A stretch of 64,000 nt of DNA. Source: Christiangramia sp. GTDB lineage: Bacteria; Bacteroidota; Bacteroidia; Flavobacteriales; Flavobacteriaceae. The notes under the pieces are model-generated. The model ran no database searches. It worked only from the letters and a program-made list of their open reading frames with translations, and was not told the DNA's origin. Positions 13,248 through 50,900 of this stretch are shown piece by piece (position 1 is the first letter of the stretch; each line of letters opens with the position of its first letter). The position numbers and the translations under genes were made by a program. Location of the stretch: assembly GCF_029937855.1 (NCBI RefSeq), contig NZ_JAPYPC010000002.1:1-64000 (forward strand). Reading direction: 5' to 3'.

Positions 13248-16200
13248 ATGGAGAAAATGAGCAAAAATTTCCCTGGATACAAAGGTCTTGACCTGCCTAA
13301 AGTGGCGGAAGAAATCCTCAATTATTGGGAAGAGAATGATATTTTCGAGAAGAGCGTTTCCACCCGTGAAGGTAAAGAGCCGTATATATTCTTTGAAGGC
13401 CCTCCTTCAGCCAATGGTCTGCCGGGAATTCACCATGTAATGGCACGCTCTATAAAAGATATTTTTTGTCGCTATAAAACACAAAAAGGTTTCCAGGTAA
13501 AACGTAAAGCTGGCTGGGATACGCACGGTCTTCCTATTGAGCTTGGTGTTGAAAAAGAACTTGGGATCACTAAAGAGGATATTGGCACTAAGATAAGTGT
13601 TGAAAAGTATAATGATGCCTGTAAGAATGCAGTAATGCGTTATACTGACGTTTGGAACGATCTTACCAAAAAAATGGGTTATTGGGTAGATATGGAAGAT
13701 CCATATATTACCTATAAATCCAAATATATGGAAACCGTATGGTGGCTGCTTTCAGAGATATACAAAAAAGATCTTATCTATAAAGGCTATACTATACAGC
13801 CCTATTCACCAAAAGCTGGTACAGGCTTGAGTTCTCATGAACTTAATCAGCCGGGAACCTATCAGGATGTGACCGATACTACGGTTACTGCCATGTTTAA
13901 GTTAATCGCCCTCCCAGCCTCCCCCGATGGGAGAGGAGCAGCACATTCACCTTTAAATTCTTCCCCTTTGGGGAAGTTAGATGGGGATTTTGGGGGTATT
14001 TATTTTATTGCCTGGACCACTACTCCATGGACTTTACCTTCCAATACGGCATTAACGGTTGGTCCTAAGATTGAATATGTTAGCGTAAAAACTTATAATC
14101 AATATACTTTCGAACCAATAACGATTATTGTAGCGAAGGAACTTGCTGAAAAACAATTCGACAAGAAATTCAGAAAAGCGGAATCTGAAGAAGATCTGAA
14201 GTCTTATTCAGAAGCGGATAAGAAGATTCCTTATTTGATTTCCAAAGAAAGCTTTACGGGAAAAGATCTTGTAGGTATAAAATATGAGCAATTACTGCCT
14301 TATGCCCAGCCAAACGACAATCCGGAAAATGCTTTTAGAGTAATTTCAGGAGATTTTGTGACTACTGAAGATGGTACCGGGATTGTACATACCTCACCAA
14401 CTTTTGGTGCAGATGATGCTTTAGTTGCAAAACAGGCAACTCCTGAAGTTCCGCCTTTACTGGTAAAAGATGATAATGGAAATCTTGTTCCGTTAGTTGA
14501 TCTTCAGGGTAAATTCAGGCCAGAAATGGGAGAATTTGCCGGGAAATATGTAAAGAACGAATATTATGATGATGGACATGCTCCGGAAAAATCTGTTGAC
14601 GTTGAATTAGCGATCAAGCTAAAGGAAGAAAACAGGGCTTTTAAAGTTGAAAAGTATGTTCACAGTTATCCAAATTGCTGGAGAACAGATAAACCAATAT
14701 TATATTATCCACTGGATTCGTGGTTCATTAAAGTTACCGAATTCAAGGATAGGATGCACGAACTCAACCAAAGCATAAACTGGAAACCGAAATCTACCGG
14801 AGAAGGGCGTTTTGGCAACTGGCTGGCAAATGCGAATGACTGGAATTTAAGTAGAAGCAGGTATTGGGGTATTCCACTGCCAATATGGAGAACGGAAGAC
14901 GGAACAGAAATAAAAGTGATTGGTTCTGTGGCCGAACTTAAAGAAGAAATGGCGAAAGCTGTGGAAGCAGGAGTTCTTAAAAAAGATATTTTTGAAGATT
15001 TTGAGCCTGGCAATATGAGTGAAGAAAACTATGATAAAGTAGACCTTCACAAGAATGTTGTAGATACAATCACGCTTGTTTCTGAATCAGGAAAACCAAT
15101 GAAACGTGAAGCAGACCTTATCGATGTATGGTTCGATTCAGGTTCTATGCCTTATTCCCAATGGCATTATCCATTTGAGAACAAAGAAAAAGTAGAAAAT
15201 AAGTGGCGTAAAGCCGATTTTATTGCAGAAGGAGTAGACCAGACCAGAGGTTGGTTCTATACACTACATGCGATTGCAACCATGATCTTTGATGATGTTG
15301 CATATAAGAATGTGGTTTCTAACGGGCTTGTATTGGATAAAAATGGGCAGAAAATGTCTAAGCGTTTAGGAAATGCCGTAGACCCCTTTGAGACCCTTGC
15401 AGCTTACGGCCCTGATGCTACCCGTTGGTATATGATCTCGAATGCGAATCCCTGGGATAATCTTAAATTTGATATTGAGGGGATTGGAGAAGTCCAGCGT
15501 AAATTCTTCGGAACCCTTTACAATACCTATTCTTTCTTTACATTATATGCAAACATCGATAAATTCAGTTATGCTGAAAAGGATGTTGCTTTAGAGAAAC
15601 GACCAGAAATAGACAGGTGGATACTTTCAGAATTACATACTCTTATAGAGAAAGTAGATAAATTCTATGCAGATTATGAACCAACTAAAGCTACCAGGGC
15701 AATTTCAGAATTTGTTCAGGAGAATTTGAGTAACTGGTTCGTGAGATTGAGCAGAAGAAGATTCTGGAAAGGAGATTATGAGCAGGATAAGATCTCTGCT
15801 TATCAAACTTTATATACATGTCTTGAAACTATTGCAAAACTTGGAGCTCCGGTAGCGCCTTTCTTTATGGATAGGCTGTTCAAGGACCTTAATGTCGCAA
15901 CAGGGAAAGACAAATCAGAATCTGTACATATTGCTGATTTCCCGGCTTATAAACCAGAATTTGTTGATAAATCTCTGGAGCGTAAAATGGAGAAGGCTCA
16001 AACGATCTCCTCTTTAGTACTTTCGCTTCGTAAAAAAGAGATGATCAAGGTGCGCCAACCGCTGCAAAGAGTAATGATTCCGGTGCTTGACGATGCTCAA
16101 AAGAAAGAGATCCAGGCAGTTGAAGATTTGATAAAGTCTGAAGTAAATGTGAAGGAAATAGAGCTGATCGATGATGCTTCAGGCCTTTTGATAAAGCAAA

Positions 16201-45940: not shown

Positions 45941-47323
45941 ATGAGGAATTTTGTAATTTTTGGTTGGGGGATAATTTTTATGATACAAGGATGTGTAAAA
46001 ACAGATGATTTTGAAATTCCTGAACAGGAAATTTCAGAAGTTGAAATTGAAGGAAATCTCACCAGTATTTTAGCAGTAAAAGGCAACTTTAATTTTGATA
46101 CTGAAGCTATTTATACCTTCCGGGAAAGTGATACCTGGTTTGAGGGCTATGTGATTTCCAGTGATGCTAGCGGCAATTTCTATAAGGAACTGGTAGTTCA
46201 GGATAAACCGGAAAATCCAGTTGCCGGAATTCATATATTATTAGATCATAATTCTCTTTTTCAAACTTATAATATAGGTAGGAAGATCTATGTTAAGCTG
46301 GACGGTCTAAGCTTGTGGTATAATAATGGAGTATTGCAATTAGGTATTCAAAACAGGGGTGATGTGGTGGCAATACCAAATTCTTTAATAGATGACCATA
46401 TTATAAGATCTGAAATAACTGCGGAAATCCTTCCGAAGAATATCAGTATCTCAGATTTTAATTCGGAATTAAAGAATTTATATGTCAAATTACAAAATGT
46501 TCAGTTTGATCGAAATCTGGTTAAAAATGATCAGATTTTTTCCTTTGCCTCCAATGCTTATGACAGGTTTGACGGAGAGCGGCAGCTAGAAAGTTGTGAA
46601 ACCGGTGAAACTGTCTTACTGAGTACCAGTACATTTTCTAATTTTAAATCGCTCCTTATTCCTGCGGGTTCAGGAAGTATTGCAGGGATTTTAACCCGGG
46701 ATTTCTATGATGAACATTATGTAGTGGTGGTGAATTCGCCAGATGCCTTGCAAATGAATGGAGAACGATGTGATACAGAATACCTGAGTTGCGAAAATGC
46801 AACTACTACTAATGGCACAAAAATCATATTTGAAGAGAATTTTGATGGGGTAACTTCTAACACTACTTTAAATTCACGAGGCTGGACCAATGTGAATGTA
46901 AGTGGGGGAGAGAAAAAATTCACTCCTACTTTATCTGCAGGAAACCGGATTTTGCGGATTTCAGCATATAATACCAATGAAAGTCCGTTAGAGGCCTGGC
47001 TGGTTACTCCAAAAATAGATTTAAACTCTTCAAATTCTGAAATGTTGAGTTTTGATATACTTTCTTCCTACGATAAAGGAATGATTCTCGAAGTATATAT
47101 CACCCAGGACTATACCGGTGATCCGCTAAGTACCGAATGGACAGAGTTAGATGCCAATATTCCATTCGGCCCTTCAAGTTCTAATGCAACGATTTTCAGA
47201 GAATCAAATATTAATATTTCCTGTTTAGAGGGCAATGTTTGGATAGGCTTCAGATATTTAGGCTCCAGCTTTGATAAAACTACTACGTACGATCTTGATG
47301 ATATTAGAGTGATTGGGGAATGA
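45941..47323 (+). CDS. DUF5689 domain lipoprotein
   Basis: Lipobox Cys18 (GWGIIFMIQGC). DUF5689 covers about residues 35-270 (FEGYVISSDASGNFYKELVV and KLYVKL/NLYVKLQNVQFD-type blocks), an OB-fold-like beta domain common in Bacteroidota surface proteins. The C-terminal 170 residues (IIFEENFDGVTSNTTLNSRG to YDLDDIRVIGE) form a choice-of-anchor-type beta-sandwich. Likely surface-exposed binding partner of the TonB receptor just upstream. Its stop codon is 9 bp before the left repeat of the DUF559 unit. Confidence 0.87.
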   Translation: MRNFVIFGWGIIFMIQGCVKTDDFEIPEQEISEVEIEGNLTSILAVKGNFNFDTEAIYTFRESDTWFEGYVISSDASGNFYKELVVQDKPENPVAGIHILLDHNSLFQTYNIGRKIYVKLDGLSLWYNNGVLQLGIQNRGDVVAIPNSLIDDHIIRSEITAEILPKNISISDFNSELKNLYVKLQNVQFDRNLVKNDQIFSFASNAYDRFDGERQLESCETGETVLLSTSTFSNFKSLLIPAGSGSIAGILTRDFYDEHYVVVVNSPDALQMNGERCDTEYLSCENATTTNGTKIIFEENFDGVTSNTTLNSRGWTNVNVSGGEKKFTPTLSAGNRILRISAYNTNESPLEAWLVTPKIDLNSSNSEMLSFDILSSYDKGMILEVYITQDYTGDPLSTEWTELDANIPFGPSSSNATIFRESNINISCLEGNVWIGFRYLGSSFDKTTTYDLDDIRVIGE

Positions 47324-47332
47324 AATTAAAAC

Positions 47333-47445
47333 GGACCACCCCGTCCTTCGGACACCCCTCCTAAAATAGGAGGGGAGAAAAAAATAAACAAAAGGCTTCT
47401 TCCCTAATATTAGGGAAGGTGTCAGCCGATGGCAGACGAAAGGTC
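47333..47445 (+). repeat. Left direct repeat of the DUF559 unit
   Basis: Contains two hairpins: CCCCTCCT-AAAAT-AGGAGGGG at 47355-47375, and the perfect 18-bp palindrome TTCCCTAATATTAGGGAA at 47400-47417, then GGTGTCAGCCGATGGCAGAC. The start GGACCACC, the A-rich middle and the GTGTCAGCCGA block align with the right copy. Confidence 0.8.
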
Positions 47446-47460
47446 AAAAACACAATTCCT

Positions 47461-47820
47461 ATGAAGAGAATACACAACCGAAAATACCTGGAACCATATC
47501 GTAAAAAATTGAGGAAATCACTTACTCCGGCGGAAGCTTTTCTTTGGAAGCATTTACGAAATAGTAAGTTAGAAGGGCGAAAATTCAGAAGGCAACATAG
47601 TATCGAAAATTATATTGCGGATTTTTACTGTCCGCAGGAAAGATTGATTATTGAACTGGATGGGCAGGTTCATTTTAATGAAGCTGCCAGAGAATATGAT
47701 AAAAAGAGAACCGATGATTTAAATATGCTTGGAATTAGAGTTATAAGATTTGAAAATAAAGTAGTGTTTGATAATTTGGATTTTGTGATACAGAAGATAA
47801 AAGATAATTTTAAAAACTGA
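47461..47820 (+). CDS. DUF559 endonuclease-like protein
   Basis: 119-residue protein of the DUF559 family, which has the restriction-endonuclease-like fold related to Vsr. The core shows KFRRQHSIENYIADFYCPQE and LIIELDGQVHF: candidate active-site residues are Asp54, Glu65 and Asp67. The C-terminal RTDDLNMLGIRVIRFENKVV is typical. An in-frame ATG at 47419 lies within the left repeat and is rejected as start. Substrate unknown. Its unusual setting between two hairpin repeats suggests it may act on them or be carried by them. Confidence 0.88.
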   Translation: MKRIHNRKYLEPYRKKLRKSLTPAEAFLWKHLRNSKLEGRKFRRQHSIENYIADFYCPQERLIIELDGQVHFNEAAREYDKKRTDDLNMLGIRVIRFENKVVFDNLDFVIQKIKDNFKN

Positions 47821-47938
47821 CCACCACGTCCCTCGTACACCCCTTCTAAATTAGGTGGAGAAAAAAAATGCAGAAATTACTAAAAGGCTCCTTCGCTAAT
47901 TTTAGGGAAGGTGTCAGCCGAAGGCGGACGGAAGGGTC
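47819..47938 (+). repeat. Right direct repeat of the DUF559 unit
   Basis: Diverged copy of 47333-47445: TGACCACC at the start, ACACCCCTTCTAAATTAGGTGG (weakened first hairpin), an A-rich middle, AAAAGGCTCC, a degenerate second hairpin (TTCGCTAATTTTAGGGAAGG), then GTGTCAGCCGAAGGCGGACG. The left copy has the better-preserved hairpins. Confidence 0.8.
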
Positions 47939-47950
47939 AGAGCAGAAATT

Positions 47951-50900
47951 TTAACTAACAGCTTCCTCCTTTTTGTGTCTAAAATCCAGTGGCTGCAGCA
48001 CTTTTAAAGCTTTTTCAACAGAAGTGATCCGGTCAAAAGTAAGTAGAAGTTTTAATCCCGCTCGGGTTTCCTTCTCTTTCATGGTGCAATTCTGCCGGTG
48101 TGTCTGTACATACTGGAGCACTTTAGTAAAGTTATTGGTTTGATAAAACCTGGATTTTTGATCGGAAATAAAATAACCTACCATTTTGTTCTTTTTCATG
48201 ATTACTCGTTCCAAACCAATCTTGGCCGCAATCCATTTTATCCTAACCGAATTTAGCAAATCAACAGCCTGAGTGGGAAGTTCTCCAAATCTATCCACCA
48301 GATCAGCTTCAAATTTCTGAAGTTCTTCTTCAGTTTTTAGTTCGTTCAATTTGGTATAAAGATTCAATCTTTCAGTAATATTATTGATATAATCATCAGG
48401 GAAGAGCAATTCGAAATCTGTGTCTATTTGCGTTTCCTTGACAAAATCCTTTTGTTCCACATCTTCAGTTTCAGCATACAGATCGCGAAATTCATTTTCT
48501 TTTAATTCCTCAATAGCTTCATTAAGGATCTTTTGATAAGTGTCAAAACCAATATCATTGATGAACCCACTTTGCTCCCCGCCAAGTAAATCTCCTGCAC
48601 CACGAATTTCAAGATCCTTCATGGCAATATTGAAACCGCTTCCGAGTTCTGAAAACTGCTCCAAAGCGGTAATACGCTTCCTGGCATCTTCGGTCATTGC
48701 GGAATATGGCGGAGTGATAAAGTAACAAAATGCTTTTTTATTACTACGGCCTACGCGCCCACGCATCTGGTGAAGATCAGACAAACCAAAATTATTGGCA
48801 TTATTGATAAAGATGGTGTTGGCCTCAGAAACATCAAGTCCGCTTTCTACGATCGTGGTTGAAACCAGCACATCAAACTCACCATTGATGAAGCTTAGCA
48901 TCAATTTTTCTAGTTTTTTACCTTCCATCTGTCCATGTCCCACGCCAATTTTCGCATCGGGCACCAGGCGCTGGATCATTCCGGCAACTTCCTTAATGTT
49001 TTCCACCCTGTTATGAATAAAGAACACCTGTCCTCCTCGCTGAATTTCATAAGAAATAGCATCACGAATGGTCTCTTCTGAAAACCGAATCACATGACTT
49101 TCAATAGGATATCGGTTGGGAGGGGGAGTGGTGATGGTAGATAAGTCACGAGCAGCCATAAGGCTGAATTGTAGGGTTCTGGGGATTGGAGTAGCGGTTA
49201 AGGTTAAGGTATCCACATTCTCTTTTATGGTCTTCAACTTGTCTTTTACGGCGACCCCGAATTTCTGTTCTTCATCTACGATCAACAATCCCAGATCCTT
49301 AAATTTAACCGTTTTGCTCACCAACTGGTGCGTGCCAATAATAATATCCACCTTGCCGCTTTCAAGATCTGCCAGGGTTTCTTTTCGCTCCTTTGCGGTT
49401 CTGAAACGATTCAGATAATCTACCCTTACCGGGAAATCTTTAAGCCTTTCAGAAAAAGTTCGATGATGCTGAAAAGCAAGAATGGTGGTAGGGACCAAAA
49501 CTGCCACCTGTTTATTATTATCTACCGCTTTAAAAGCAGCTCTAATCGCAATTTCAGTTTTCCCGAAACCAACATCGCCGCATACAAGCCTATCCATTGG
49601 GCGCTCGTTTTCCATATCGGCTTTTACGGCTGCAGTGGCAGAACTTTGGTCAGGGGTGTCTTCGTACATAAAGGAAGCTTCCAGCTCGTGTTGCAGGTAA
49701 GAGTCAGGATCGTATTTAAAACCTTTCTCTAATCTTCTTTTCGCATATAATTTAATAAGATCATAGGCAATATGCTTAACCCGTGCTTTGGTTTTCTTCT
49801 TAAGATTCTTCCAGGCATTACTTCCCAACTTGTAGATCTTTGGTGGCTTGCCATCTTTACCATTGAATTTGGAGATCTTATGAAGCGAATGTATGCTGAG
49901 ATATAAAATATCACGTTCTCCGTAAATCAGTTTGATCGCTTCCTGTTTTTTACCTTCAACATCGATCTTCTGAAGTCCGCCAAACTTCCCAATTCCGTGG
50001 TCTATATGCGTTACATAATCGCCAACTTCCAGATTTGTTAGTTCCTTCAGGGTGATTGCCTGCTTTTTGGCATAACCATTCTTTAAATTGAATTTATGAT
50101 AACGTTCAAAAATCTGGTGATCTGTATAACAAACAGTTTTTAAATCTTCATCGATAAACCCCTGGAACATGGAAAAAACAGGCGTTTGATATTTTACTTC
50201 TTTCTCCTGGTCTTCAAAAATATCGTGAAAACGTTTCGCTTGCTGCTCACTTACGCAACAAATGAAATTTGTATAACCAGCTTCCTGATTTTCAATAAGA
50301 TTGTCTATGAGTAATTCAAATTGCTTATTGAAGCTAGGTTGAGGTTTGGTGTGGAACTCTATTATTTTTTCAGCTTTTAAAAAAGCCTGTGTACTCAATT
50401 CTACTGCAGTATACTCCAGCAATTGTTTTTTAATAAGCTCGCCATTACTAAAAAGTTCTTTTGGTTCACTATGTTTCACATCTTCTGAAAGCTCCTTAAA
50501 GGCTTCCTCTGCTTTTTTATATAGCTTATCTGCCTGAGCTGAAAGCAGGTCAAGATTTTTAATGAAGACGATGGTTTTTTCTGAAATATACTTCAGGAAA
50601 CTTTCTCGTGTCACACTGAGCGCAGTCGAAGTGTCATCAAGACGCTTGTTCTCTACGTTCGGCATTACCGAAATCTTCTTCTTTTTATCTGTAGAAAGCT
50701 GGGTTTCCACATCAAAGGTTCGGATACTGTCTATTTCGTCCCCAAAGAATTCAATTCTATAAGGTTCATCATGACTAAAGGAAAACACATCTATAATCCC
50801 TCCACGCACAGAGAATTCCCCCGGTTCTGTAACAAAATCAACTCTCTTGAACTGGTATTCAAAAAGTACTTCATTTACAAAATCTATCGAGAGTTCCTCT

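Follow-up and report, generated by a model that had tools for sequence, protein, structure and literature searches.

Inteins place a nuclease domain in frame in conserved genes together with a splicing domain, and the intron of the homing endonuclease I-Bth0305I is self-splicing. Rickettsia palindromic elements are short palindromic repeats that lie in frame in protein genes and carry no gene. A DNA triplex of the purine motif requires a mirror purine tail. Intrastrand triplex motifs (TM and TM_ECO), consisting of a purine hairpin and a mirror third block, were described by Holder et al. (2015); the available part of that paper (PMC4666352) sets the loops in the motif search to 1-6 nt, reports triplex formation by TM in solution, distinguishes two motif variants (second loop TTA or CCG) with inverted or head-to-head pairs in five E. 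coli K-12 cases, and states that no mobility activities were ever found around the motifs. The part of PMC3733652 that we draw on names the Rickettsia palindromic elements and describes REPtrons, in which the gene of a small DNA-cutting enzyme lies between palindromic repeats and lone repeats occur elsewhere.

The locus described here lies in a window of 64,000 nucleotides (the whole stretch of DNA that was analysed) from Christiangramia sp., a member of the Flavobacteriaceae in the phylum Bacteroidota, and consists of a DUF559 gene between two repeats, each composed of two units. Its units and those beside other DUF559 genes share the purine hairpin and mirror third block with the intrastrand triplex motifs, but here the DUF559 nuclease family is linked to the units, the window units exceed the 1-6-nt loops, and units in the family often contain a second hairpin in the connector. 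As in REPtrons, the gene at DUF559 loci is flanked by palindromic repeats, but the enzyme is DUF559/Vsr-like rather than a tyrosine (Y1) transposase and the repeat obeys a mirror (triplex-type) rule, so the wording of the preliminary description, "parallel to but distinct from RAYT/REP", fits. Copies of DUF559 that lie in frame in other genes resemble Rickettsia palindromic elements in being bounded by in-frame palindromic repeats and differ from them in carrying a whole nuclease domain; they resemble inteins in placing a nuclease domain in frame in conserved genes, whereas no splicing domain appears among the Pfam matches of the scanned hosts. Finally, the EDxHD/Vsr-like homing endonuclease I-Bth0305I (3r3p) shares with DUF559 the fold and part of the catalytic-domain sequence, but it originates, according to its PDB name, from a mobile intron, whereas the DUF559 loci have no visible splicing element. 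The triplex rule and the in-frame copies in essential genes lay beyond the view of the preliminary description.

The gene occupies positions 47461..47820 on the forward strand (from the list of open reading frames) and its 119-aa product matches the PF04480 profile with an E-value of 2.6e-33 and 114.6 bits, compared to the curated cut-off of 20.6. By alignment, the left repeat extends over 47328..47443 and the right repeat over 47813..47940 (aligned part 47813-47935), both on the forward strand and each of about 115 nt, with 81% identity over 124 alignment columns, which bears out the earlier description of a 119-residue DUF559 gene between imperfect direct repeats of this length, as does the TGA stop codon (47818-47820), which indeed falls within the right repeat. 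Each repeat contains an LE and an RE unit, head to head, with an A-rich spacer between them, the LE unit being reversed. In the left repeat, the strict scan placed the LE unit at 47335..47375 on the reverse strand, where it reads CCCCTCCT(atttt)AGGAGGGG-[hairpin B tgtccgaaggac]-GGGGTGGT, and its tail is the mirror of arm 2 with T facing A. Hairpin A of the left RE unit (47399..47418, forward strand, strict scan) is a perfect palindrome as previously stated, of 20 nt rather than 18 bp, and is followed at 47419..47445 (forward strand) by a connector that, read directly, contains hairpin B (tgtcagccgatggcagac) and a decayed mirror tail GAAAGGTC. In the right repeat, direct reading indicates a decayed LE unit at 47821..47861 on the reverse strand; the RE unit at 47890..47937 on the forward strand, read directly and aligned to the left copy, has one mismatch in hairpin A, a hairpin B (tgtcagccgaaggcggac) and, at 47930-47937 on the same strand, an intact mirror tail GGAAGGGT.

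The only full copies of the repeat found in the 3.9-Mb genome of the same organism are the two at the window locus; the other four matches consist of the palindrome on the opposite strand and three stretches of 16-28 nt, and no spread of the repeat within this genome was found. The exact RE pattern, which is narrow and is escaped by the units of this genome itself, has 9 matches in 24 genomes of the genus, 8 of them at the window locus. A strict scan of the whole window for a purine hairpin with a mirror tail returned a site in ileS (13960-13986) and two overlapping readings at 47335-47420 only. A search of 47250-48010 for known RNA families gave no match at E<=1, and a search for defence systems gave only three weak PADLOC matches (the best, at 2.7e-8, to mREase_II), for which reason a defence reading was dropped.

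A unit generally runs from arm 1 through a loop to arm 2 (purines), and from there through a connector to the tail. Among 24 family loci inspected, the tail often looked like arm 2 mirrored, where T may face A (for example arm AGGAGGGG with tail GGGGTGGT, and arm AGGGAAGG with tail GGAAGGGT). Counted over 269 readings of hairpins no more than 400 nt from a DUF559 domain (from 334, with an arm of at least 8, enough sequence behind and duplicates removed), a full 8-nt mirror tail occurred in 116 readings, compared to 9 with a direct, 2 with a reverse-complement and 1 with a complement tail, in a set that mixes stand-alone and in-frame copies, ignores relatedness and counts palindromes on both strands, though usually one strand only has the tail. 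A second hairpin (B) with a stem of at least 5 is present in 68 of 86 connectors of at least 10 nt, versus 31% of shuffles, and its sequence varies while the hairpin is kept (60 distinct stem strands). The window units have connectors of 12-18 nt with hairpin B, and many units at the broader set of DUF559 loci discussed below have connectors of 2-4 nt. Judged by sequence, the window units and the units adjacent to DUF559 genes elsewhere carry the mirror third block of class II (purine) intrastrand triplex motifs.

The AlphaFold model of the window protein has a pLDDT of 88.2, and the nearest solved structures are 3hrl (DUF559) and then 3r3p, the catalytic domain of I-Bth0305I (Foldseek E-value 2.9e-4; 7.1e-5 in hmmsearch), with Vsr a weaker match. 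Residues E65, D67, H71 and D80 are invariant in 44 alignment rows. The only other profile match of the protein is a sub-threshold one to MTES_1575, with none to a tyrosine (RAYT) transposase. The predicted fold of the DUF559 protein is thus that of a known homing endonuclease family.

Proximity of DUF559 genes to the units extends over several phyla. Of 80 named DUF559 loci, 67 have a strict unit (perfect stem of at least 7, purine arm, mirror tail) no farther than 400 bp away. The 80 loci were the best of 552 relatives of an alignment led by E. coli and itself built among the matches listed, not a random draw, and two of them come from one isolate (L192, L227). These loci are mostly from Proteobacteria and also include Gastranaerophilales, Chloroflexi, Nitrospirota, Planctomycetota, Elusimicrobia and others. 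The density of units around them falls from 6.1 per kb at 0-150 bp to 1.25 (150-300 bp), 0.20 (300-600 bp) and 0.10 (600-1000 bp), and farther out to 0.07 (1000-2000 bp), 0.05 (2000-4000 bp) and 0.03 (4000-8000 bp); one dinucleotide shuffle of each locus contained no units. Plain purine hairpins are also found at 67 of the named loci and direct tails at 62, because many arms (such as GGGAGAGGG) are mirror-symmetric, and the mirror and direct tails are separated only by the test on the 269 readings, where relatedness is ignored. In the family of the window, 47 of 55 stand-alone DUF559 copies (those retrieved by the genus search and from the upper part of the family listing) have a strict unit within 400 bp. 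Left and right flanks are similar (score at least 45) for 32 of the 54 copies used, one having been dropped for flanks that were too short. The same score was reached by 2 of 311 control pairs taken from the same locus and by 5.6% of 3000 pairs in which left and right flanks were mismatched. Weighing against a DUF559 element are the 13 named loci and 8 family copies that have no strict unit within 400 bp.

The exact LE hairpin pattern, which misses the window's own units and matches the same genome elsewhere (C62), was found in 19 genomes of the 299 in the family. A strong DUF559 match (E<=1e-20) is present in 17 of these 19, compared to 105 of all 299, the latter being a manual count (Fisher p 6e-7); of the other two, which count against the element, G221 has no match and G128 a weak one only. 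One genome reaches the highest count of this pattern, with 13 sites, of which several adjoin a DUF559 gene, and units therefore multiply in some genomes. In a Photobacterium plasmid (L160, 3364-4948), a looser finder (stem 6) identified 15 units behind a DUF559 gene.

One could suppose that the repeats spread by replication errors, recombination or some other enzyme and that the DUF559 gene is trapped cargo, as repeats that have no gene (in ileS, and the lone repeat in L167) and the 23 motifs of E. coli K-12 beside a single ycjD would suggest. Several cargo families would then be expected, but at HNH-nuclease loci of the family, the only other family tested, a unit was found within 600 bp in 0 of 30 cases. 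Also speaking against trapped cargo are the roughly 200-fold density peak at DUF559, a strong orientation bias, in which the tails of units present on both sides point inward at 36 of 46 named loci, where connectors of at most 24 nt were allowed, and at 18 of 26 family loci, where the limit was 38 nt, and the correlation of arm distances with protein distances (Mantel r 0.197, 2 of 2000 permutations, 63 loci, phylogeny not being separated). We consider trapped cargo unlikely. Ordinary terminators or chance hairpins were rejected on the basis of the flank similarity, the excess of mirror tails, the density peak and the HNH control. The physical tie of DUF559 genes to triplex-type units in many bacteria is shown by these counts, and the enrichment about which the preliminary description had asked is present (67/80 and 47/55, against 0/30 for HNH). 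The best reading of this anatomy, we infer, is a nuclease that may move or cut the repeats.

Behind ycjD, the DUF559 gene of E. coli K-12, lies a triplex-type motif with one stem mismatch, which the strict finder misses. At 80% cover, 3364 of 5426 E. coli genomes contain the block of ycjD and motif. Two strains without the block have an efflux operon in its place, which the available part of PMC12817139 names eef. Between sapF and fabI, the ycjD block and the efflux operon interchange (L300 and L301 versus L299), with similarity restarting about 40 nt beyond the triplex motif. Other repeat places are more numerous in 16 E. coli genomes with ycjD than in 9 without (p 0.0008, among the 25 matches listed), but both phylogroup and the way the rows were ranked confound this comparison. 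PF04480 gave no match in the E. coli control genome though K-12 MG1655 has ycjD, and the control may be a strain without this gene.

Among 24 genomes of the genus, 8, including the window's own, have the gene at the window site, in the same interval flanked by a lipoprotein gene and mfd. A script resolved this site in 15 of the 24, 8 of them with the gene. Among the others, G019 has a lone repeat in which RE is intact and LE decayed, G015 a decayed repeat, G004 the RE half only, G023 and G013 short intervals with no unit, and G007 lacks the lipoprotein neighbour; in G003 (L180), 805 bases without a strict unit separate mfd from the lipoprotein gene. PF04480 had no match in the remaining nine genomes. 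One stand-alone DUF559 copy of the genus (L025, in G008) lies away from the mfd locus, with no mfd match. A recent insertion was rejected for the window copy on account of the shared interval in 8 of 24 genomes, and the suggestion that the gene and its repeats form a minimal mobile unit does not hold here in the sense of recent mobility. The window copy is an old resident insertion between the lipoprotein gene and mfd, and recombination between its two repeats would produce a lone repeat of the kind seen in the congener.

Genes of Bacteroidota, among them metH, leuS, recG and ileS, also contain DUF559 in frame, usually bounded by units at both ends. A motif script named the host of 45 of 50 long-frame copies from the genus and family searches: leuS (19), metH site 1 (10), metH site 2 (1), hemD (7, where DUF559 precedes the enzyme), recG (6), ileS (1) and hisD (1, where it follows the enzyme). 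No motif name was obtained for L041, L055, L068, L071 and L019, the last of which is a weak unrelated match that was excluded from the in-frame unit count. Pfam confirmed the hosts for one representative of each of six hosts and, at the level of the phylum, identified metH again along with hsdR, hsdM, a type ISP gene, an N6_N4 methylase and a GATase_5 protein; for the copies in restriction genes, ordinary domain fusion is a fair alternative. Unit-like structures (score at least 8) lie on both sides of 50 of 59 in-frame copies, compared to 5 of 466 single control windows, and the tails point outward in 33 of 39 (score at least 9), opposite to the stand-alone loci. The window's own genome has two in-frame copies, in metH and leuS. 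In G238, the two DUF559 copies of a single metH share 82.5% identity across 418 nt and have inverted ends 25-27 nt long, and the borders of the block are therefore visible; the nuclease with a unit at each end is shown to form a discrete block of about 420 nt, in frame in essential genes. No splicing domain was found in the Pfam matches of 14 host proteins (6 at E<=1e-8 and 8 at E<=1e-10).

Such blocks also bear on the proposition that DUF559 is a Vsr-like repair or quality-control nuclease whose flanking repeats are expression signals (attenuators or terminators). The available parts of two papers lend it some substance: the Caulobacter protein VsrA, which has a DUF559 domain, causes a DNA damage response on loss of a methylase, repair of TG mismatches at methylated sites being proposed for it (PMC12907096), and the YcjD profile detects Vsr (PMC1189080); hairpins on both sides of the gene would likewise suit it. 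The proposition does not explain why in-frame blocks in unrelated genes share the same ends, why one metH holds two copies or why repeats remain at a site without the gene, and we judge it very unlikely.

Alleles without the block are common in the genus. Of 22 genomes, 17 have an empty metH site 1 and 5 an occupied one; of 23 compared at the leuS loop, 16 have an empty loop, 3 have DUF559 there and 4 a different short palindrome. Sites without the gene in relatives, for which the preliminary description had suggested looking, thus exist in metH and leuS and in the genomes without the gene at the window site. In L107, L112, L113 and L114, a second palindrome (GAGACCCTGAAAC..GTTCAGGGTGACG, read ETLKQVQGD) lies in frame in the same leuS loop; compared by eye, it resembles the CGTC-tagged repeats of PMC3733652, which the available part of that paper says have no dedicated transposase. 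The leuS of L046 has DUF559 plus in-frame palindrome-like stretches (SPTLSEGKGV, SPSLGEGF).

Empty and occupied alleles raise the prospect of a non-splicing homing element, in which the nuclease would cut empty metH, leuS or recG alleles and spread by break repair, with the units as structural ends. In its favour, a homing endonuclease is the closest solved structure that is not itself a DUF559 protein, the same metH site is used in different genera and, in L341, in a second family of the phylum, and presence at metH is scattered in the genus, with 5 changes for 5 carriers on both the metH tree and a three-gene tree, of which well-supported branches force 3 and 5, respectively. This scatter could reflect loss by allele replacement. 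The metH insert (10 of 11 inserts could be cut out) is more diverged within the genus than its host gene, which speaks against homing, and its synonymous sites are mostly saturated with a dN of 0.11-0.24; the insert is therefore old and its protein sequence kept. Furthermore, stand-alone copies adjoin units instead of one conserved target. Recent homing at metH is not supported by the carrier trees and the divergence of the insert above that of the host, and homing in general strikes us as improbable. No target duplication was read at metH, where the occupied loop takes the place of about 8 residues in the empty one.

The repeat in ileS (13918..13996, forward strand, borders by eye) is an in-frame two-unit repeat with no nuclease gene and includes an RE-type unit, CTTCCCC(ttt)GGGGAAG-tta-GATGGGG, at 13960-13986 on the forward strand (strict scan). 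It had been described as similar to the window repeats, which is correct for the structural rule, which is the same, and incorrect for the sequence, where no significant similarity was found. Reading ileS by eye in 23 congeners, we found the whole repeat only in the window's own genome; in the others there is one single unit with a stem mismatch, decayed related sequence in seven and a plain loop in 14.

The presence of DUF559 beside units in many groups, together with the in-frame copies, makes the nuclease a candidate for the spreader of these repeats. In the mechanism that we propose, a single-stranded unit would fold into a hairpin with a third purine strand, and the DUF559 protein, structurally near I-Bth0305I and Vsr, would recognise this fold or its base and cut there; units, alone or with the gene between them, would thereby be copied or moved, as is thought for RAYT on REP. 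In-frame copies would survive where the block is free of stops in that frame and is placed in a tolerant loop, and we propose that the host protein therefore carries the nuclease as an extra domain. The window locus is probably a resident copy of such a nuclease-plus-repeat element, whose DUF559 protein would recognise and cut the unit fold and so spread the units; the genus of the window, which has few repeats and the DUF559 copy at one site, counts against this, as do the metH findings, namely an insert more diverged than its host gene, a scatter that allele replacement could explain and a junction in which no target duplication was read. A search for a published link of DUF559 to triplex or REP-type repeats found none, with bioRxiv and most subscription journals lying outside the search, and an earlier report is possible.

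Our wider proposal, to which we assign about an even chance, is that DUF559 proteins may be the missing mobilisers of triplex repeats across bacteria, reading a three-stranded hairpin, and in Bacteroidota may also be a non-splicing in-frame guest of essential genes. The occurrence of one nuclease family on the repeats in many groups makes the origin of the repeats directly testable. If the proposal is true, RAYT/REP would be joined by a repeat-nuclease partnership of a new kind. To our knowledge, no described transposon end uses such a three-stranded DNA structure, which would then be new among transposon ends, and a nuclease gene would be able to persist in leuS, metH, ileS or recG without a splicing domain.
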